Part shown: positions 21,033 through 31,430 of the stretch, one piece after another
Layout of the letters: each line of letters starts with the position of its first letter
Numbering within the stretch: position 1 is the stretch's first letter
Assembly: GCA_902826685.1 (NCBI GenBank)
Contig: CADEFT010000003.1
Location: 280,696-344,695 of the forward strand
Direction of reading: 5' to 3'
Source of the DNA: an uncultured Acidobacteriota bacterium
GTDB lineage: Bacteria; Acidobacteriota; Terriglobia; Bryobacterales; Bryobacteraceae
DNA: 64,000 bases
Notes under the pieces: generated by a model
Databases searched by the model: none
What the model was told of the DNA's origin: nothing
Seen by the model: only the letters and a program-made list of their open reading frames with translations
Made by a program: the position numbers and the translations under genes

Positions 21033-24000
21033 TCACGAAAGCAGCATTTCGAGTTCGTTGCGGCCCAGATCGCGAATCAGGCTGTTGTCTTCGTTGATGA
21101 TGGCATCGGCCAGATCGCGCTTGGTGCTTTGCAGCGCCAGTACCTTTTCTTCCACCGTGTCTTTGGCGATCAGCCGGTAGGCGAACACCTGGCGCGACTG
21201 GCCGATGCGATGCGTACGGTCGATCGCCTGCGCTTCCACCGCCGGGTTCCACCACGGGTCGAGCAGGAAGACGTAGTCCGCCGCCGTCAGATTCAACCCC
21301 ACGCCGCCCGCCTTCAGGCTGATCAGAAACAGCTTGCAATCGGGATCGTTCTGGAACCGCTCCACGCGTTCCTGGCGGTCTCGCGTCTTGCCATCCAGAT
21401 ATTCATACGTGACGCCGTCTTCGTCCAGACGCGTCCGCACGATATCGAGGAAGCTCACGAACTGCGAGAACACCAGAACCTTGTGTCCTTCGTCGACCAC
21501 CTCTTCGATCTGAGGCAACAGCATGTCGAGCTTTGCGCTCGCTTCCCCGGTACGCTTGGGATCGACCAGGCCCGGATGGCACGCCGCCTGGCGCAGCCTC
21601 AGCAGCGCTTCCAGAACGTACATCTTCGACCTCGCCAGACCATTCTTTTCAATTCGGCCCAGCAGCGAAGAGCGGTAATGCGCACGCAGTTCATCGTAGA
21701 GCTTGCGCTGCGGCGCTTCGAGTTCGCAATAGAGCGTCTGCTCGGTCTTGGGTGGCAGTTCCGAAGCCACCTGCTGCTTGGTGCGGCGGAGAATGAATGG
21801 ACGCAGCGCGCGCGCCAGCACACGCCGCACTTCTTCATCGGCGTTGCGCATCAGGCCGGCAGCGCCGCGGAACACCGACGCCGAGCCGAGCATACCTGGA
21901 TTCAGGAATTCAAACAGGCTCCAAAGCTCGCCCAGGTGATTCTCGACAGGCGTGCCCGACAGCGCCAGCCGGTTGCCGGCTTCGAGCAGCCGCGCCGCCT
22001 TGGCCGATTCCGAAGACGCGTTCTTGATCGCCTGCGCTTCGTCGAGAATCACATAGTCGAACTTCATGTTGCGCAGCCCCACCACGTCCCGCCGCAGCGT
22101 GCCGTAGGTGGTCAGAATCAGGTCGCTCTGTTCGAGCTTGCTCGCGTCGCGGCCCAGGCCCGTGTAGTCGAGCACGCGCAGCTTCGGCGTGAACCGCGCC
22201 GCTTCCTGCCGCCAGTTGAACACCAGCGATTTCGGCACCACGGCGAGCGACGGCCCGGCCTTGCCTTGTTCCCGCAGTTCGCGCCGCGTTTCGAGCAGCG
22301 CCAGCACCTGCGCCGTCTTGCCCACGCCCATGTCATCGGCCAGGCAGCCGCCGAAGCCGAACGTGCGCAAAAACTCCATCCACCCCAACCCCTCGCGCTG
22401 ATAGACGCGCAGCGATCCGGTGAAGCCCTCGGGCTGCGGAGCCGCCTTGACACCCTGGAACTGGCTCAGTTGCGTGCGGATGCGCTCGAACCCTTCGTCC
22501 CAATCGACATCCTCGCGATCGGCCAGCAGCACATCGAGCACGCCCGCCTGATTCTTGCCGAACCGCACATGGTCGCCATCCAATTGCCCCATGCCCACCA
22601 GGGGGCGGATCTCGGCCAGCCACTCCTCCGGCAGCATGCCGAGACTGCCGTCGTCAAGCAGCACCATCTTGTCGCCGCGCTGCAGCGCCTTCAAAAGCTC
22701 CGGCAGCCGCGCGCTGGCTCCCTCGAAATCGGCCGTGCCGCGCAGCTCAAACCAGTCGATGCCGGAGCTGACATCCAGCTTGAATTTCCCGGCGCGGCGG
22801 AACACCTTGCCTTCGGCTTCGATGCGCCAGTTGTCTTTGACCAGTTCGCGCACCACGGCCGGAAGCTTGGCCTCGCTCAATAGCAGATACCGCTCATACG
22901 GCGGATAGGGCGAACTTTCCTCGCGCAACCCGGCTTCGAGAAGCCGCTGCCGCGCCTTGCGTTCGAACTCCAGATCGCGAAGCATCAGCTTCCGGCTGTC
23001 GGCATCGTAAACGCCACGGCCCGGACTTCCGCCGGCGATGCGGCTGTCACCGTACTGAAACGTCAGCGCGGCCTTCAGACGCACACGGTCCCACGCCTTC
23101 GATAATTCCAGGCATGGGGCGGGAGCGAGAATCACTTCCTCCACTTCCGTTCCCCGCGGAAGCACCAGCCGCGGCAGACCGGGAGTCGAGGCAAACGTAT
23201 TCACCAGATCGTCAAAATGATCCTTCAGCGCTTCGAGGGGCGGCTGGCCGCGCATCTGCGCCACGGCCGCGAACGATTCCCCGTGATCGAGCCGCGCCAC
23301 CCGGTCGCCCAGCACCACGAATCCGCCATGGCAGACGGCGCGGGCGGCGGAGATGGGCAGCCGCTCGCCTTCCCTCGCCAGCGATCCGGTGATCCGCCAC
23401 ACGCGGCCCGCATCCGCCAGGTCGAGCTCGAACACCCACGCCGCTCCTTCGTCCCACCGCAGCCGGGTCCAATCCTCGTAGTTATGGGTCTGAAGATAAA
23501 GCCTGCCCGTCGCGCAAAGCTTCGGCAACAGAAGTTCGGCACGCGGACCGCTCAGCCGCACCACGTCGCTGATGTGGCCGTGGCGATCGTCGTAATCGGT
23601 GGAATAGACGCCCGGCGAGCCCGCCATCAGCGACAACAGCTCCCTGTCTTCGGTGCGCGTCAACCGCGCCGCCGCCGCGCGGCTGATCTGCAGCGGACGC
23701 GGCTTGCCCAGGCCCCCGCGCTTCATCTGCTCGCGAATCATCAGCTCCACAAAGAAATCGCGTTTGCCTTCCGACCGCTTGGCGTTGAGCACATACGAGA
23801 TCTCGCGGCCCGTTGGCCAGTCGGCCGAGACGTGGGCCCAATCCTGGTGGGCCTGCGCCAGCCGCATGACCTGCTCTTTCCAGCGCGGCGCCGGAGGAGG
23901 CGGCGGCGCCTTGGGCTCTTCCACGATCCGGCCGCGTGGATGGGGGATGTAGTCTTCGATCTCCTCGTCGTCGTCGTCTTCGTCGATCTCTTCCTCGCCG

Positions 24001-24377
24001 TCGTCGGGAGGCACCAGGCGCAGCGACGGACGCCCGTGCCGCTTCAACACTTCAAGCTTCCCTTTTGCATCGGCCGCCAGCACCATCGCCCAAAGGTGTT
24101 TGCAGGGCTCGCGATTATCGGAAAAATAGGGACACTCGCAGTGTGCCTCCAGCACTCCCTCGCCCGGAAAGAACTCGAGCGACACGAAGTAGTTGTAGGT
24201 ACCCGCGACAAATCCATTGATTTCCGACCCGGAGGCATGGGACACGCTGACCGCGCCAGAACGGTAGACACTCGCTCCCCGGGATCGCACTTCCGCACCG
24301 AAGTGACGCTGTATTAGCGCCGCCAGACTCAGACGCACCAACTTCCCAACGTAGCAGATAGCACCCTCGCCGGGCAT
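21033..24377 (-). CDS. SNF2-family helicase with N-terminal SWIM zinc finger
   Basis: 1114 residues. The SWIM finger is near residues 75-95 (CECPYFSDNREPCKH, C-x-C-x8-C-x-H). A long middle region ends in the helicase core: DDMGVGKTAQVLALLE (Walker A variant), VVPKSLVFNWRQEA, ILDEAQAIKNASS (DEAQ), LSGTPVENHLGELWSLFEF, then the second lobe LVFSQFVSFLDIV, SLKAGGVGLNLTAA and QAIDRTHRIGQ. This is a RapA/HepA-like ATP-dependent DNA translocase, probably acting on protein-DNA complexes. ATG 24377 lies 19 bp from the divergent his leader, so the two promoters share the same few bases. Confidence 0.9.
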   Translation of the reverse strand: MPGEGAICYVGKLVRLSLAALIQRHFGAEVRSRGASVYRSGAVSVSHASGSEINGFVAGTYNYFVSLEFFPGEGVLEAHCECPYFSDNREPCKHLWAMVLAADAKGKLEVLKRHGRPSLRLVPPDDGEEEIDEDDDDEEIEDYIPHPRGRIVEEPKAPPPPPAPRWKEQVMRLAQAHQDWAHVSADWPTGREISYVLNAKRSEGKRDFFVELMIREQMKRGGLGKPRPLQISRAAAARLTRTEDRELLSLMAGSPGVYSTDYDDRHGHISDVVRLSGPRAELLLPKLCATGRLYLQTHNYEDWTRLRWDEGAAWVFELDLADAGRVWRITGSLAREGERLPISAARAVCHGGFVVLGDRVARLDHGESFAAVAQMRGQPPLEALKDHFDDLVNTFASTPGLPRLVLPRGTEVEEVILAPAPCLELSKAWDRVRLKAALTFQYGDSRIAGGSPGRGVYDADSRKLMLRDLEFERKARQRLLEAGLREESSPYPPYERYLLLSEAKLPAVVRELVKDNWRIEAEGKVFRRAGKFKLDVSSGIDWFELRGTADFEGASARLPELLKALQRGDKMVLLDDGSLGMLPEEWLAEIRPLVGMGQLDGDHVRFGKNQAGVLDVLLADREDVDWDEGFERIRTQLSQFQGVKAAPQPEGFTGSLRVYQREGLGWMEFLRTFGFGGCLADDMGVGKTAQVLALLETRRELREQGKAGPSLAVVPKSLVFNWRQEAARFTPKLRVLDYTGLGRDASKLEQSDLILTTYGTLRRDVVGLRNMKFDYVILDEAQAIKNASSESAKAARLLEAGNRLALSGTPVENHLGELWSLFEFLNPGMLGSASVFRGAAGLMRNADEEVRRVLARALRPFILRRTKQQVASELPPKTEQTLYCELEAPQRKLYDELRAHYRSSLLGRIEKNGLARSKMYVLEALLRLRQAACHPGLVDPKRTGEASAKLDMLLPQIEEVVDEGHKVLVFSQFVSFLDIVRTRLDEDGVTYEYLDGKTRDRQERVERFQNDPDCKLFLISLKAGGVGLNLTAADYVFLLDPWWNPAVEAQAIDRTHRIGQSRQVFAYRLIAKDTVEEKVLALQSTKRDLADAIINEDNSLIRDLGRNELEMLLS

Positions 24378-24381
24378 CTGA

Positions 24382-24387
24382 TATACT
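24382..24387 (+). promoter_or_regulatory. -10-like box TATACT for the his operon
   Basis: TATACT lies 9 nt before the leader-peptide ATG at 24397 in a GC-rich background. No good -35 is seen. Transcription would start at about 24393-24396, making the leader peptide nearly leaderless. It lies just before the first codon of the divergent helicase gene. Confidence 0.45.
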
Positions 24388-24396
24388 CAGAAATTC

Positions 24397-24474
24397 ATGC
24401 TTTCTGCAGCCTTCCGGCCTCATCATCACCATATACAGGACTGCGGTGTGGTGCCGCGACGGGCAGGGTTCTGA
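24397..24474 (+). CDS. hisL: Histidine operon leader peptide with four consecutive His codons
   Basis: 25 codons, ATG to TGA: MLSAAFRP, then CAT CAT CAC CAT (24421-24432), then IQDCGVVPRRAGF. Four His codons in a row 77 bp before hisI, followed by an antiterminator and a terminator, is the classical arrangement of histidine attenuation. Low charged tRNA-His would stall the ribosome at 24421-24432, leaving the downstream strand free to form the antiterminator; translation to the TGA would cover it and let the terminator form. It is too short to be found by usual gene callers. Expression is not proven, but the combination of features makes chance unlikely. Confidence 0.88.
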   Translation: MLSAAFRPHHHHIQDCGVVPRRAGF

Positions 24475-24516
24475 AACAGCGAACCCGATTGATTCAAGCG
24501 AATTAAGCCCGTCCGC
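24456..24516 (+). promoter_or_regulatory. Antiterminator of the his attenuator
   Basis: GACGGGC (24458-24464) is exactly complementary to GCCCGTC (24507-24513), and GC at 24456-24457 pairs with GC at 24515-24516 around one bulge. A second stem, GGGTTC (24466-24471) with GAACCC (24481-24486), nests inside. This pairing uses the left arm of the terminator, so the two structures exclude each other. The left strand overlaps the last codons of the leader peptide, as attenuation requires. Confidence 0.8.
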
Positions 24517-24531
24517 GGTTGCGGCGGGCTT
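24505..24531 (+). terminator. Attenuator terminator before hisI
   Basis: AAGCCCG (24505-24511) pairs with CGGGCTT (24525-24531), continued by CCGC/GCGG around a GGTT loop with one bulged T (24512). A modest T-rich tail (TTTCGCATTATT) follows. The stem is strong, the U-tract only moderate. It ends about 20 bp before hisI ATG 24551. Confidence 0.8.
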
Positions 24532-24550
24532 TCGCATTATTAGGGACGAA

Positions 24551-24925
24551 ATGGAACTCGACTTTGAAAAACTGGACGGTCTGGTGCCGGCCGTCATTCA
24601 GGATGAGGCGAGCGGCCGTGTGTTGATGGTGGGGTTCATGAATGACGAGTCCTTCCGCCAGACGGTAGAAACCGGATACGCCGTTTTCTACAGCCGTTCG
24701 CGCAAGAAACTGTGGCTGAAGGGGGAAAGCTCCGGCCACCGGCTGGTGGTGAAGGAAATCGCCACCGATTGCGACCGCGATTCGGTGGTCGTCAAGGTAC
24801 AGGCCCAGGGCCCCGGCGTCTGCCACAACGGGTACGAAAGCTGCTTTTACCGCAAGCTCGATAACGGCGCCTGGACCGTAACCGACCCTCAGACCTTCGA
24901 CCCCGCCAAGGTATACGGCGCATGA
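24551..24925 (+). CDS. hisI: Phosphoribosyl-AMP cyclohydrolase
   Basis: 124 residues, cyclohydrolase only (no fused HisE part). It opens the purine ring of phosphoribosyl-AMP in the third step of histidine synthesis. Metal and active-site motifs are visible: [20 protein letters not shown] and ESCFYRKL with the conserved Cys residues, plus [11 protein letters not shown] and [15 protein letters not shown] 24551 is preceded by AGGGA at a good distance. It is the first structural gene after the attenuator; its stop overlaps hisG (ATGA at 24922-24925). The preceding enzyme activity, HisE, is not encoded in the window. Confidence 0.96.
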
Positions 24926-25800
24926 GCGGGAACACGCTAAAGCTGGGTATCCCCAAGGGCAGTCTGGAAAACGCCACGGTCGAGTTGTTCCGCAAAGCCG
25001 GGTTCAACATCACCGTTTCGAGCCGCTCGTATTTCCCCGCCATCGACGATCCGGAAATCGAGTGTATGCTCATCCGCGCCCAGGAAATGGCCCGCTACGT
25101 CGAGGATGGCGTGCTCGACGCCGGGCTTACCGGCAAAGACTGGGTGGAGGAAAACGACGCCGATGTGGTCACCATCGCCGACCTCATCTACGCCAAGCAA
25201 AGCTTCGGCAAAGTGCGCTGGGTGCTGGCCGCGCCCGAAGGCTCGTCCTTCCATACCGTCAAGGATCTGCAAGGCAAAGTTATCGCCACCGAACTGGTCG
25301 GCGCCACGAAAAAGTACCTCGCGCGGCACGGGGTGACGGCGAAAGTCGAATTCAGTTGGGGCGCCACCGAAGTGAAACCGCCCGTCCTCGCCGACGCCAT
25401 CGTGGAAGTGACCGAAACCGGATCGTCGCTTCGCGCCAACAAGCTGCGCATTCTCGATACCGTCCTTGAATCGAATACGCAACTGGTGGCCAACAAAACG
25501 TCGCTCACCGACGATTGGAAGCGCCGCAAGCTCGACGATCTCAAGATGCTGCTCGAAAGCGCCATCAACGCGCTCGGGAAAGTGGGCTTGATCTTAAACG
25601 TTCACTCCAAGGACCTGAACGCGGTGCTCGAGGCGCTGCCCGCGCTCAAAAAACCAACCATCTCTCGATTGAGCGACGAGGAGTGGCTCGCCGTTCATAC
25701 GATTCTCGATGAGAACACCGTACGTTCCATCATCCCCAAACTCAAACAGGCGGGCGCGCAAGGCATCGTCGAATACCCGCTGAACAAGATCGTGATGTGA
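24922..25800 (+). CDS. hisG: ATP phosphoribosyltransferase, long form
   Basis: 292 residues, the long form with the C-terminal ACT-like regulatory domain ([19 protein letters not shown] onward) that gives feedback inhibition by histidine and needs no HisZ. It catalyses the first committed step, joining ATP and PRPP. Motifs: [33 protein letters not shown], and the PRPP loop region [16 protein letters not shown]. It is translated from an ATGA overlap with hisI. Its place directly after the attenuator fits control of the committed step. Confidence 0.97.
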
Positions 25801-25813
25801 GTGCATTGAACCT

Positions 25814-27058
25814 ATGATTCGGACCCTGGATGCCAATCAGGCAGATAAAATTCTTCTGCGGCGGCGGGCGCGCCTGGAGGAAGCCGAAGCGGAAATCAAA
25901 CCGATTCTCGATGGCGTGCGCAAGCGCGGCGACAAGGCGTTGATCGAATACGCCAAGAAATTCGACGGACTCGAAAGGCCGTCGGTGAAGGTTCCGCCGG
26001 TGGAATTGCTGAAAGCCTCCGAAGAGCTGGCGCCCGATTTCGTTTCCGCCGTCAGGATCGCCACCGAAAACATTAAAGCCTACGCCCGCCTGCAGGTGCC
26101 GAAGCCTTTCCGCAAAGCCCTTTCGCCCGGCGTGCGTCTTGGCCAGATCATCCGCCCGCTCGATTGCGTGGCCGCCTATATTCCCTCCGGCCGCTATCCG
26201 CTCCCCAGCACGTTACTGATGACCGCGGTGCCCGCCCAGATCGCCGGCGTCCGCAATATCGTCGTGGCCTCGCCGCGGCCCAATCGCGAGATTTACGGCA
26301 TCGCTTCCATGCTCGACGTGGCACAGGTGTTTCAGATGGGCGGCGCCCACGCCATCGCGGCTTTCGCCTTCGGAACCAAAGTCGTCCCCAAGGCCGACCG
26401 CATCGTGGGACCCGGCAACATCTATGTGGCCGCCGCCAAGAAACTGCTGGCCGGCGAGGTGGGCATCGACTTCATCGCCGGTCCCACCGAAATCGTCATC
26501 GTGGCCGCCGAAGGCGACCCGCGGTGGATCGCCGCCGACATGCTGGCCCAGGCCGAACACGACGTCGACGCCGCCGCCATTCTGCTCACTCCGTCGCGCC
26601 GCCTGGCAGGCGCGGTCGCGCTTGAAGTGGAGCGCCAGTTGAGCGAACTGCCCACGGCCAAGGTCGCCCGCAAGGCGATCGAGAAAAACAGCGTCATCAT
26701 CGTCGTCAATTCGCTCGAACAGGCGGTCGAACTCGCCAACGATTTCGCGCCCGAGCATCTGAGCATTCCCGAAACCCGGCTGCTCGATCTGGTCAAGCAC
26801 GCGGGCACCGTCTTCGTCGGTCCCAATTCGCCCGAAGCCGCCGGCGACTACGCCTCCGGACCGAGCCATGTCCTGCCCACCAGCGGAGTGGCGCGTGTGC
26901 GCGGCGGCCTCTCCGCTGCCGACTTTGTCAAGGTCATTTCGGTGCAGGAGTTGAACGGCGAGGCCCTGCGCCGCCTGGCCCCCGCCATCACCACGCTCGC
27001 CCGTTCGGAAGGTCTGGAGGCGCACGCGCGCTCGGTCGAGGTGCGGCTTGCCCGTTGA
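25814..27058 (+). CDS. hisD: Histidinol dehydrogenase
   Basis: 414 residues, usual length about 430. It oxidises L-histidinol to L-histidine in two NAD-dependent steps. Conserved blocks: IPSGRYPLPSTLLMTAVPAQ, GPGNIYVAAAKKLLAGEVGID, FIAGPTEIVIVA, AQAEHDVDAAAILLTPS, the zinc/base region FAPEHLSIPE and HVLPTSGVARVRGGLSAADF. It starts 13 bp after hisG and ends inside the first codons of hisC (11-bp overlap). Confidence 0.97.
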   Translation: MIRTLDANQADKILLRRRARLEEAEAEIKPILDGVRKRGDKALIEYAKKFDGLERPSVKVPPVELLKASEELAPDFVSAVRIATENIKAYARLQVPKPFRKALSPGVRLGQIIRPLDCVAAYIPSGRYPLPSTLLMTAVPAQIAGVRNIVVASPRPNREIYGIASMLDVAQVFQMGGAHAIAAFAFGTKVVPKADRIVGPGNIYVAAAKKLLAGEVGIDFIAGPTEIVIVAAEGDPRWIAADMLAQAEHDVDAAAILLTPSRRLAGAVALEVERQLSELPTAKVARKAIEKNSVIIVVNSLEQAVELANDFAPEHLSIPETRLLDLVKHAGTVFVGPNSPEAAGDYASGPSHVLPTSGVARVRGGLSAADFVKVISVQELNGEALRRLAPAITTLARSEGLEAHARSVEVRLAR

Positions 27059-28115
27059 GACGGCCGCCACACTTCCTCCCCGCCAGGCCATTCTCAAAAT
27101 GGCGCCCTATAAGCCGCCCGCCGAAGGGCGCGCCGGCAAGCTGCGGCTCGATTTCAATGAGAACACGGTGGGCTGCTCCTCGAAGGTGCTGGCTTATCTG
27201 AAAGCTCACCTGGAGCGCGAAACGCTGGCCGTCTATCCCGAATATTCGGCCACCCGCGCCGCTCTCGCGAAGTTCTTCGACCTCGACGAATCGCAGTTGG
27301 TCGTCACCAACGGCACCGATGAAGCGATTCAGGTTTTGGTGAACACCTACGTAGACGACGGCGACGACGTGATCGTCCTGCATCCTTCCTACGCCATGTA
27401 TCGCTTCTATTCGGAAGTGGCGGGCGCTTCGGTGCGCGAGCTTTCCTACCGCCCGGACGATCTGGCGTTCCCGCTCGAAGAACTGCTCGATGCCATCCGG
27501 CCCGGAACCAGGGCCATCTTCCTGGCCAACCCCAACAACCCCACCGGCACCGGCGCCGATGTCGATTCGCTGCGCCGCATCATTGAGCGCGCGCCCTCAG
27601 CGGCCGTCCTCATCGACGAGGCTTACTACGAGTTTTCCGGCGTCACCGCCATCGACACGATCCGCGAATATCCGAACGTCTTCATCAGCCGCACGTTTTC
27701 GAAAGTGTATGGCATGGCCGCCATGCGCATCGGCTGTCTATTGACGCGCGCCGGAAACGCGGCCTATCTGCGCAAAGGCCAGTCGCCTTACAGCGTGAAT
27801 CTGCTGGGCGCCATCGCCGTCCGCGCCGCCATCGAAGATTCGCACTACGTCATGAGCTACGTCGCCGAAGTCATGCTCGCCCGCGACCTGGTGTACGACG
27901 GCCTGCGCCGGCTGGGCATTCCCTTTTACCCCTCCATGGCCAATTTCGTGCTGTTCCGCGCCGGCGATCGCGCCATCGAAATCCGCGACAAGCTGCGCGA
28001 CGAAGGCATCCTGGTGCGCGACCGAAGCTATGAGCTTCCCGGCTGTGTGCGCGTCACCATCGGCCGCCAGGACCAGATGCGCCAGTTCCTCGAGGCGCTG
28101 GGGCGGATCTGGTAA
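27048..28115 (+). CDS. hisC: Histidinol-phosphate aminotransferase
   Basis: 355 residues from TTG 27048. This start keeps RQAILKMAPYKPP, the usual N-terminal segment of the family; ATG 27099 would remove part of it. It is a PLP enzyme converting imidazole-acetol phosphate to histidinol phosphate. Motifs: LDFNENTVG, NGTDEAIQVLVNTY, LANPNNPTGTGAD, LIDEAYYEF and the PLP Lys in SRTFSKVYGMAAMRIG. It overlaps hisD by 11 bp and shares one base with the HAD gene (TAATG at 28113-28117). Confidence 0.95.
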   Translation: MPVETAATLPPRQAILKMAPYKPPAEGRAGKLRLDFNENTVGCSSKVLAYLKAHLERETLAVYPEYSATRAALAKFFDLDESQLVVTNGTDEAIQVLVNTYVDDGDDVIVLHPSYAMYRFYSEVAGASVRELSYRPDDLAFPLEELLDAIRPGTRAIFLANPNNPTGTGADVDSLRRIIERAPSAAVLIDEAYYEFSGVTAIDTIREYPNVFISRTFSKVYGMAAMRIGCLLTRAGNAAYLRKGQSPYSVNLLGAIAVRAAIEDSHYVMSYVAEVMLARDLVYDGLRRLGIPFYPSMANFVLFRAGDRAIEIRDKLRDEGILVRDRSYELPGCVRVTIGRQDQMRQFLEALGRIW

Positions 28116-28801
28116 TGGCGCGGCCTCTCATCGTCTTCGACATGGATGGCGTGCTGGTGGAAGTCACCGCCTCCTATCGCGAGGCTATCCGCCAGACCGT
28201 GCTCCATTTCACCGGCCACGACATTACCTACGAGCGCATTCAGCAGTATAAGAACTCGGGCGGCTGGAACAACGACTGGGCGCTGTCTCAGAAAATCGCC
28301 GCCGACCTTGGCACTGAAGCCGATTACGCCACGGTCGTCGAAGAATTTCAAAAGCTGTTTCTCGGCCACAACGGCCGGCCGGGTCTGATTGAGCGGGAGC
28401 GTTGGATCGCGCGGCCCGGCGTGCTCGAATCGCTCACCGCCCGCTACGACCTTGGCATCTATACAGGCCGCCCGCGTCCGGAAGCCCAGCTCACTGTCGA
28501 CCGTTTCTCGGGCGCCGTCGACTTCTTCCCCATCCTCACGGCGGACGATGTGGAGCGCGGCAAGCCTAATCCGGAGGGACTCGAAAAGATTCGCGCGCAG
28601 CGGCCCGGCCAGCCGCTCTGGTACGTCGGCGATACCGTCGATGACGCGCGCTGCGCCCGCGCGGCCGGCGTCCCCTTTATCGGCGTCGCGTCGCAGGCCG
28701 CCAACCGGCGCCAGGAACTGCTCGATCTGTTCGCCTCCGAACAAGCGGCGGGCGTGCTCGACGATATCAACACTCTGGAGACGTTCCTTGCGAACCGCTA
28801 A
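28115..28801 (+). CDS. HAD hydrolase, candidate histidinol-phosphatase
   Basis: 228 residues, HAD subfamily IA. Motif I is [11 protein letters not shown], motif II region [13 protein letters not shown] (T in the Ser/Thr place), motif [14 protein letters not shown] and motif [18 protein letters not shown]. It lies between hisC and hisB with overlaps at both ends, so it is co-translated with the pathway. HisB here is the 195-residue dehydratase without a phosphatase domain, and no PHP-type phosphatase is in the operon, so this protein is the natural candidate for the histidinol-phosphate phosphatase step. That assignment is inference from position and fold. Confidence 0.85.
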
Positions 28802-29375
28802 GCTCACGCGCGACACCAAAGAGACCCAAATCTCCGGACGCCTCGCCATCGAAGGCAAAGGCCGCTATGAAATCTCCACCGGCGTGCGCTTCCTCGATCA
28901 CATGCTGGAACTGTTCACCAAGCACGGCGGGTTCGACCTGGCGCTCAAAGCCCAGGGCGATCTCGACGTCGATCAGCACCACACGGTCGAAGATTGCGGC
29001 ATCGTGCTGGGGCAGCTTTTCTCGCAGGCCCTCGGTGACCGCAAGGGCATCAATCGCGCCGGCTACTTCGTGCTGCCCATGGATGAAACGCTGGCCGTGG
29101 TGGCCGTGGACCTGGGCGGCCGTCCATCGCTTGTGTACAAAGACCAGGTGCGTGTGCGGCTGGTGGGCGATCTGCAGGTGGAGCTCGTGCACGATTTCCT
29201 CGAAGGTTTCGTGAATCACTGCGGCGCCAACCTGCACGGGAAAATTCTCTACGGGCGCTCCTCTCACCACAAGATCGAAGCGATCTTCAAATGTTTTGCG
29301 CGCGCCATGAAGTACGCGTGCTCCAAGGATTCGCGGTTGAAGGATCAACTGCCATCCACCAAGGGCCTGCTGTGA
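28788..29375 (+). CDS. hisB: Imidazoleglycerol-phosphate dehydratase
   Basis: 195 residues from TTG 28788, chosen because GGAG lies 7 nt before it and gives the standard N-terminus ([11 protein letters not shown]). It is monofunctional [36 protein letters not shown] (metal-binding HHxxED), [22 protein letters not shown] and [18 protein letters not shown] with the second His pair. It dehydrates imidazoleglycerol phosphate with manganese. It overlaps the HAD gene by 14 bp and hisH by 4 (GTGA). Confidence 0.97.
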
Positions 29376-29968
29376 TTTCCATCATCGACTATGGCGCCGG
29401 CAATCTGCGCAGCGTGCAAAACACGCTCGAAGAAGTGGGCGCCGAATTCCGCCTGGCGCACACGGCCGCCGATCTGGCCGCGGCTTCGAAGATTATCCTG
29501 CCCGGCGTCGGCCATTTCGGCCAGCTGATCCGCTCTCTCGACAGCATGGGACTGCGCGCTTCCATCCGCGAGCGTATCGGCGCCGGCGTTCCCTTCCTCG
29601 GCATCTGCCTTGGACTGCAGGCGCTGTTTGAACGCTCCGAAGAGGCGCCGGAACTCGAGGGGCTCGGCCTGCTGCCGGGCGTCGTGCGGCGCTTCTCCCA
29701 CGACCTGCGCGTGCCGCATATGGGCTGGAACGGGATCGAGACACGGCCCCGGTCCAGGCTGCTCGGCGGACTCGACCCGCACCCCTATTTCTATTTCGCC
29801 AATAGCTACTACTGCCCGGTGAATGAATCGACCGCCGCCACCTGCACCTATGGCGTTCCCTTCACCGCCGTGCTCGAGCGGGCCAACCTGTTCGCGGTGC
29901 AGTTCCACCCCGAAAAGTCGGGCCCCCTGGGACTGCGCATTGTGAAGAATTTCGTCGATCTGACCTGA
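29372..29968 (+). CDS. hisH: Imidazole glycerol-phosphate synthase, glutamine amidotransferase subunit
   Basis: 198 residues from GTG 29372 ([15 protein letters not shown]). It is a class I amidotransferase: the nucleophile is in [11 protein letters not shown], the His and Glu are in [12 protein letters not shown], with the oxyanion region LPGVGHF. It supplies ammonia to HisF. HisF follows 5 bp downstream, as is usual for the complex partner. The GTG overlaps the hisB stop. Confidence 0.97.
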
Positions 29969-29973
29969 CGCCG

Positions 29974-30735
29974 ATGCTAGCCAAGCGAATCATTCCCTGC
30001 CTCGATGTCACCGCCGGACGCGTGGTGAAAGGCGTCAATTTCGTCAACCTGCGCGATGCCGGCGATCCGGTGGAACTGGCCGGACGCTATAACGCGCAAT
30101 GCGCCGACGAGCTTGTCTTTCTCGATATCACCGCCACCCATGAACATCGCGAGACGATGATCGAAGTGGTGAAGCGCACCGCGCGCCAGGTTTTTATTCC
30201 TCTCACCGTTGGCGGCGGCATCCGCTCGGTGGCCGACGGCCGGTCGATCCTGCTCGCGGGCGCCGATAAGGTCGGCGTCAACAGCGCCGCCGTCAAGCGT
30301 CCGGAGTTGATCGCCGAGCTGAGCGCGGAATTCGGAGCGCAGGCGGTGGTGCTCGCCATCGACGCCCGGCGCCGCCCCTCCGGCGGATGGAGCGTCTTTA
30401 CCCGCGGCGGCCGCGACGACGCCGGGATCGATGCCATCGAATGGGGCGCGCGCGGCGAGCAGCTGGGCGCGGGCGAGATTCTACTTACGTCCATGGATGC
30501 CGACGGCGTTCAGACTGGCTTCGACTGCGAGTTGACCCGCGCCGTTTCCCGCGCCACCCGCATCCCGGTAATCGCTTCCGGCGGCGCAGGCACCCTCGAA
30601 CATTTTCTCGAAGTGTTGACCGAAGGCGAAGCCGACGCGGCCCTGGCGGCGTCCATCTTCCACTACGGCACCTACACGGTGGACGGCCTGAAGCAATACC
30701 TGGAACGGCACGGCGTGCCTGTGAGGAAAGCTTGA
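29974..30735 (+). CDS. hisF: Imidazole glycerol-phosphate synthase, cyclase subunit
   Basis: 253 residues, full-length TIM barrel. Catalytic acids are in [17 protein letters not shown] and [14 protein letters not shown]; phosphate-binding loops are [24 protein letters not shown] and [15 protein letters not shown]. With HisH it makes imidazole glycerol phosphate and AICAR. The stop overlaps the hisA start as TTGA (30732-30735). Confidence 0.97.
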
Positions 30736-31430
30736 TCATTCCCTGCATCGATCTGATGGATGGCAAAGTCGTCCAACTCGTACAAGGCCGCGATAAGGCG
30801 CTCGAAGGCGGCACACCCGAGGAAATGCTTCAGCGTTTCTCGGCCTTCCCGCAGATTCAGGTCATCGACCTCGATGCCGCGATCGGACGCGGGGAGAACG
30901 ATGCGCTCGTGGAATTCCTTACCGCCCGTGCGTGGTGCCGCGTCGGCGGCGGCGTCCGGTCGCCCGAACGCGCCGTCAAACTGGCGGCTCAAGGCGCGCG
31001 CAGGATCATCGTCGGCACCGCGGCGTTTCATTCCGACGGCATCAACCGCCCCCTGCTCGATTCCATCGCCGCCGCCGTTGGGCCGGAACGGATTCTCATC
31101 GCGCTCGACAGTAAAGACGGCCGCATCGTCGTCAAAGGCTGGCGCGAAGCCACCAGTCTGACCGCCGAACAGGTCATCCGCGATCTGGAGCCCTACTGCG
31201 GCGGATTCCTCTGCACCTACGTAGACAAGGAAGGCATGATGCAGGGCACCGACCTGGACTGGTTCCGCCGCCTGCGCGCCGCCACCCGCCACGACATCAC
31301 CGCCGCGGGCGGCATCACCACCGTGGAAGAAATCGCCGAGCTTGAGAAGTTGCGGATCGACTCGGCACTGGGCATGGCGATCTACACCGGCCGGCTCAAC
31401 CTGGAGGAATTGGCGCGGATCGGCGCCTGA
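30732..31430 (+). CDS. hisA: ProFAR isomerase HisA
   Basis: 232 residues from TTG 30732, with GAGG 6 nt before it. The N-terminus [20 protein letters not shown] holds the first catalytic Asp, and [16 protein letters not shown] holds the second region; other barrel motifs are [18 protein letters not shown] and [18 protein letters not shown]. It isomerises ProFAR to PRFAR, the substrate of HisF. It is the last gene of the operon; the convergent membrane-protein gene ends 4 bp later, and no U-rich terminator is visible between them. Confidence 0.94.

Follow-up and report, generated by a model that had tools for sequence, protein, structure and literature searches.

The window, i.e., the whole stretch of 64,000 nucleotides analysed here, belongs to an Acidobacteriota genome of 7.4 Mb in 83 contigs. 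On its plus strand, a short open reading frame with counterparts in relatives (24397–24474; ATG at 24397, 25 codons, TGA at 24472–24474) precedes a histidine operon and encodes the peptide MLSAAFRPHHHHIQDCGVVPRRAGF. Four consecutive His codons, CAT CAT CAC CAT, occupy positions 24421–24432, and on re-reading the window we found this leader base for base as described in an earlier note on the same DNA. The first gene of the operon, hisI (24551–24925; NF000768, 153.3 bits), is followed on the same strand by hisG, hisD, hisC, a gene for a HAD-family hydrolase, hisB, hisH, hisF, and hisA (24922–31430; NCBIfam assignments). The gene upstream of the leader, for an SNF2-type helicase, is divergent (21033–24377, minus strand). 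The HAD-family hydrolase, located between hisC and hisB (28115–28801), matches TIGR01548 with 125.8 bits, below the cut-off of 140.2. Neither hisE nor a second histidinol-phosphate phosphatase was found among the operon proteins scanned with NCBIfam, and the hydrolase may be the histidinol-phosphate phosphatase of the operon.

Two segments of the leader region (plus strand throughout) are exactly complementary: GACGGGC at 24458–24464, inside the leader frame, and GCCCGTC at 24507–24513, which is also the left arm of a GC-rich hairpin. This complementarity, claimed in the earlier note, is confirmed in the window bases. The two segments would form the 5′ and 3′ arms of an antiterminator enclosing two nested hairpins. 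The first, GGGTTC/GAACCC (24466–24471/24481–24486), had also been noticed before; it is present and spans the stop codon of the leader. The second, TTGATTC/GAATTAA (24489–24495/24500–24506, with one G–U pair), is absent from the earlier note and comes from folding. With both hairpins, the antiterminator uses nearly all of 24458–24513. The terminator hairpin (24506–24530) folds as AGCCCG-T-CCGC/GCGG-CGGGCT (24506–24516/24521–24530) with T24512 bulged, and in the window the same T24512 completes the antiterminator with an A–T pair, both in agreement with what had been proposed from the letters. An imperfect U-tract extends to about 24542. This tail, TTTCGCATTATT, is interrupted and poorer than in many relatives, where five or more T occur. 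A strict terminator scan of 24200–24700 reported none.

For the comparison with relatives, loci were taken by HisG, which has a match in 115 of 121 genomes from the window's family; the best 80 named loci, with titles mostly of Bryobacterales and other Acidobacteria, were added in the same way. The nearest of them bear titles that agree with the placement guessed in the earlier note (Bryobacterales, Acidobacteriota). One of the loci (L059) is titled Bordetella parapertussis, probably a mislabel of this metagenome bin; its HisG is 80% identical to that of the window and it has an acidobacterial-type his leader. Together with the window, 110 loci gave 105 with a hisI match and upstream sequence, reduced to 98 distinct upstream regions (window included). 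Upstream of hisI, 91 of the 98 regions have a short ORF in which three or more of five successive codons are for His. The same test gave 0/98 in reverse complements, 1–3/98 in dinucleotide shuffles, and 10/1140 in random windows from the longer loci, so that the His-run leader is not a matter of chance. With other amino acids, Arg comes next (45/98), then Ala (35/98). Among the seven regions without a His run, one has two His codons (L019), one has its His codons spaced (L035), and one has its leader past a gene start that was set wrongly (L057). In the other four (L065, L073, L091, L095), the leader is seemingly lost, as judged by eye, which counts against an attenuator. In L073 and L095, the leader ORF is seemingly gone while the −10 box and the terminator hairpin are still plain, as if the operon were stuck in the off state, or else the assembly had collapsed there.

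The two arms match each other within each leader. In 81 of 91 leaders, the own arms pair better than synonymous recodings do on average (at or below 10 of 200 recodings in 22/91). When arms are swapped among the 91 leaders, none of 20000 permutations pairs as well as the own arms; relatedness is not removed in this test. With 42 hand-picked diverse leaders, own arms are better than swapped ones by 4.3 kcal/mol once row and column means are removed (z −8.7); for 29 representatives, one per group, where a single locus or a second tandem leader also forms a group, z is −7.1. This matching extends to distant families. In an alignment of 59 leaders, gCGaCGGGC in the leader stands opposite GCCCGCCGC in the terminator. 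The five core pairs are intact in 51 to 56 of 58–59 rows, and the terminator helix is 96.8% paired. At the position after the core pairs, there is an A–C mismatch in 26 rows, G–C in 20, and A–T in 2 including the window. The earlier note had looked to relatives for conserved His runs and for compensatory changes in the arms. The first part stands, with His runs and terminator conserved and the two arms matching; compensatory changes are not seen within this close set of 59, where the antiterminator has no covariation beyond shuffles (78.8% vs. 78.4% paired), because the terminator arm barely varies there.

The leader is also present in other families of the phylum. In a phylum-wide sample, HisG has a match in 129 of 198 genomes, and 40 loci were hand-picked over the families. 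A His leader occurs in 27 of these 40, and 16 families, including that of the window, have one. Where HisG is long and similar, 17 of 20 loci have a His-run ORF no more than 0.9 kb upstream of hisG, a limit that would leave room for a hisI gene in between. Where HisG is distant, 10 of 20 have one no more than 0.41 kb upstream (of these 20, L132 and L143 end at contig ends). The same scan of stretches of 3–4 kb gave six further ORFs far from hisG, which are probably there by chance. There is no near leader in L119, L126, L127, L132–L134, L143, L144, and L146–L150, and the hairpins behind L122, L131, L136, and L138 are weak, misplaced, or not found. Since L135 and L142 have two each, the leaders in the 27 loci number 29. 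In the family of L135 (f16), 4/4 genomes with a HisG match have a tandem pair of His leaders ahead of hisG, each with its own hairpin behind it (L135/L210, L207, L208, and L209, from two genera; hairpins read by eye in three). The family of L142 (f22) has two other loci without a nearby leader.

Some leaders are found under the names of other phyla. Two loci titled Armatimonadota (L090 and L109) have a his leader, as have three titled Acidimicrobium or Ferrithrix bins, in which HisG is 74–76% identical to that of the window. In the family of one such locus (L098; 31 genomes), window-type HisG occurs in 2 genomes, HisG of 41–46% identity in 27, and no match in 2. In the stretch of at most 1.5 kb before hisG, leader and hairpin are present in 2/2 of the genomes with window-type HisG vs. 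0/27 of the others, among which two short chance ORFs occur without a hairpin and a few loci end at contig ends. Since the leader tracks the window-type HisG, a few genomes titled actinobacteria seem to have acquired the his operon and its switch jointly, or the bins may be contaminated.

A TG-extended −10 box, TGATATACT (24379–24387), which the earlier note does not mention, is the predicted promoter of the leader and ends 9 nt before its ATG; a similar box at a similar distance is found in relatives. The best −10 match falls 7–10 nt before the leader start in 68/91 leaders (38 at 8 nt and 18 at 9 nt), from which the leader mRNA is predicted to be leaderless. With the usual distance between −10 box and start, the transcript would begin 0–6 nt before the AUG (24391–24397 in the window). 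The scores are those of a hand-written weight matrix for the −10 box. With that matrix, a score of at least 4 at 7–10 nt is found before 68/90 leader starts vs. 220/24124 other ATGs (0.9%); at a cut of 3 the numbers are 70/90 leaders and 16/98 hisI starts, and at a cut of 5, 54/90 vs. 0/98. Immediately before the leader ATG, the usual bases are T, T, and C or T, in that order.

The same attenuator could have an ordinary 5′ UTR, if transcription began at a more distant upstream site and the −10-like box near the ATG were incidental. A purine start at 24391–24393 in the window would leave a 5′ end of 4–6 nt, and among the 29 other-family leaders SD-like motifs occur in 5 (including both f22 leaders and the upstream f16 leader). 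There, a box with a score of at least 2 at 7–10 nt precedes 22/29 leaders vs. 4.8% of other ATGs, and a score of 3 or more is reached by only 8/29. This alternative is nevertheless unlikely in view of the close leaders: their excess of boxes at 7–10 nt over other ATGs is the one given above, 56 of the 68 strong boxes (score of at least 5, any position) are TG-extended, and a spacing of 7–10 nt has no room for an SD site. In the close set, an SD-like tetramer stands at the proper place in 10/91 leaders and 26/98 hisI genes.

A hairpin with a T-rich tail is called behind 91/91 leaders (median −18.8 kcal/mol); in L027, L062, L071, L090, L103, and L108 the caller's choice was a displaced or longer hairpin, and for later tests a motif defined the arms. 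A hairpin of −12 kcal/mol or lower lies within 100 nt of the leader stop in 90/91 leaders vs. 23/290 random windows. Such a hairpin might act on translation, hiding the ribosome site of hisI until a ribosome on the leader frees it, and the interrupted U-tract of the window would suit that role. It is nevertheless very improbable here: the hairpin ends at 24530 and the AGGGA before hisI (24542–24546) lies outside it, and many relatives have five or more T behind the stem. That the hairpin merely terminates the upstream gene, the His run being coincidental, is hardly credible; the conserved GCCCGCC hairpins exist, and nothing beyond this speaks for it, while the neighbor at 21033–24377 is divergent and His runs occur in 91/98 regions vs. 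about 1% of random windows.

T-boxes are common in the his operons of Firmicutes, in the account that parts of PMC9413887 give, but a T-box or another known tRNA- or metabolite-sensing leader can practically be discounted here: the window has no Rfam match at the gathering score, at E ≤ 1 the region 24300–24700 gives only a snoRNA match of 13.5 bits, an Rfam search of 16 relative loci gave just a 6S RNA, and there is no T-box in the genome at E ≤ 0.001. This 6S RNA (RF00013, 55.5 bits) lies on the opposite strand upstream of a his leader (L044:2438–2634, minus strand). Two covariance models were tried as candidates, His_leader (RF00514), without a match in the window, in 24300–24700, or in the 16 relative loci, and T-box (RF00230), without a match in the window, in 24300–24700, or in the genome.

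Folding was examined at the decision point, taken as a transcript ending at the terminator left arm with the ribosome placed on the His codons. With the ribosome so stalled, the left arm has a probability of at least 0.5 of pairing with the leader ORF in 84/91 leaders, compared with 72/91 for the means of recoded controls and 62/91 for the RNA without a ribosome; pairing is above the leader's own recoded mean in 84/91 (p = 3e-15). In the window, arm–leader pairing is 0.88 without a ribosome vs. 0.72 with a stalled one. A default-off state without translation is thus unsupported, because the window RNA without a ribosome also pairs the arm to the leader. When the full leader is folded at equilibrium with a ribosome stalled on it, the terminator is favored in 65/83 leaders, with no difference from recoded controls (p = 0.10); the window has P(term) 0.34 in this test. 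Since equilibrium favors the terminator in most stalled leaders, the switch would have to be kinetic. Known attenuators are held to depend on the order of folding.

For the window transcript up to 24516 and a stalled ribosome, the fold is the antiterminator with both nested hairpins (−33.0 kcal/mol). In the full leader, the antiterminator persists if the free RNA begins at 24436 or 24440, and from 24445 the terminator wins by 2 kcal/mol. With the ribosome at the stop codon, the RNA behind it folds as the terminator (−25.5 kcal/mol). Without a ribosome, the full-length fold has the 5′ part of the leader paired with the left arm, and the terminator forms.

The anatomy of the leader, its conservation, the matching of the arms, and the spacing between −10 box and AUG are seen directly in the sequences. 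Because His runs and terminator are conserved in relatives and the arms of leader and terminator match, we read the region as the leader of a his operon with mutually exclusive arms, controlled by ribosome-mediated transcription attenuation from a likely leaderless mRNA, with a probability of roughly 0.87. RNA polymerase would start at the leader AUG or a few bases before it, and a ribosome would load on the bare 5′ end without a Shine–Dalgarno site. A shortage of charged tRNA-His would hold the ribosome at the run of four His codons, with 24458–24464 left free; the emerging 24507–24513 would then pair with it, the two small hairpins being folded in between, so that the terminator is blocked and hisIGDC-HAD-BHFA is transcribed. 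When histidine is plentiful, the ribosome would reach the stop codon at 24472–24474 and cover the left arm, the terminator (24506–24530) would form, and transcription would end near 24531–24542. The earlier note had deduced the same geometry, a left arm free with the ribosome on the His codons and covered with the ribosome at the TGA, and the spacings fit it: 25 nt separate the last His codon from the arm at 24458–24464 and 7 nt the arm from the stop codon, for a ribosome reach of about 15 nt. Stalling, termination, leaderless initiation, and the response to histidine are what we infer from this arrangement.

Leaders of other amino acid operons were also met. Upstream of trpE, nothing recurrent was found in 26 relatives; the single candidate, a Trp-rich ORF (MGIWRWRIWC) that has a −10-like box of score 4.6, belongs to L165 and is absent from the other 25 trpE loci. 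In the window's family, ilvB is preceded by a leader ORF rich in branched-chain residues in 11/12 loci (L177–L188; a loose test, uncontrolled), and 9 of these ORFs end in GPA. Only for L177 and L182 was a hairpin behind the ilvB leader identified, by eye. The second of these loci is from the window's own genome (G000:C25); its ilvB leader is preceded by an SD-like GAAGGAG and is therefore not leaderless.

The enterobacterial his attenuator (hisL; RF00514) likewise has a short ORF with a His run, a terminator before the first his gene, and an alternative antiterminator. It differs in that the window leader has no RF00514 match, is predicted to be leaderless, and has an antiterminator arm inside the ORF. 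There are also four His codons in the window leader and seven in that of enterobacterial hisL. The logic of hisL thus appears to be retained; what would be new is the want of an Rfam match, the predicted leaderless start, and the spread over Acidobacteriota. Mycobacteria reportedly have leaderless polycysteine ORFs (Canestrari, 2020), attenuator ORFs at the 5′ end as predicted here, for another amino acid and in another phylum. In Sinorhizobium meliloti, the trpL RNA begins at its ATG, according to the portion consulted of PMC7298713; this attenuator ORF also lies at the 5′ end of its transcript, again for another amino acid and in another phylum. The his attenuators of the Bacillus cereus group, Eubacteriales, and Erysipelotrichales, as parts of PMC9413887 describe them, were also predicted by comparison and have three to five successive His codons. 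They belong to another phylum, a leaderless start is not mentioned in those parts, and the likeness is one of description only. No leaderless his attenuator was found in the literature examined, part of it in excerpt.

In 2010, by the excerpt consulted of PMC2965389, leader peptides had until then been known only in Proteobacteria and Actinobacteria, new cases from Firmicutes were added, and the attenuators predicted in phyla like Acidobacteria were almost all without an associated function. In 2022, the sections consulted of PMC9413887 placed his attenuators in Proteobacteria and a few groups of Firmicutes, the Rfam motif not being found in Firmicutes. Leader genes near structural genes were indicated for Acidobacteria generally, by distance statistics, in the part seen of PMC4833913. 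In the open-licence literature, as far as its texts were available, no his attenuator in Acidobacteria was found, and an earlier prediction in Lopatovskaya et al. 2010 (doi 10.1134/S0026893310010164) is possible. We lean, with some reserve, toward an old, phylum-wide leaderless his attenuator of Acidobacteriota, its ORF starting where the mRNA itself starts. In one family it would have undergone tandem duplication, and it would have passed between phyla along with the operon.

In annotation, three features would mark this leader: a −10 box, a His run 7–10 nt after it, and, further on, a GC-rich hairpin ahead of hisI or hisG. The reading also raises a question: with the ribosome loading on a leaderless RNA, what keeps translation synchronized with transcription? 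If it is true, translation-coupled control of a biosynthesis operon would be common in Acidobacteriota, a large group of bacteria.
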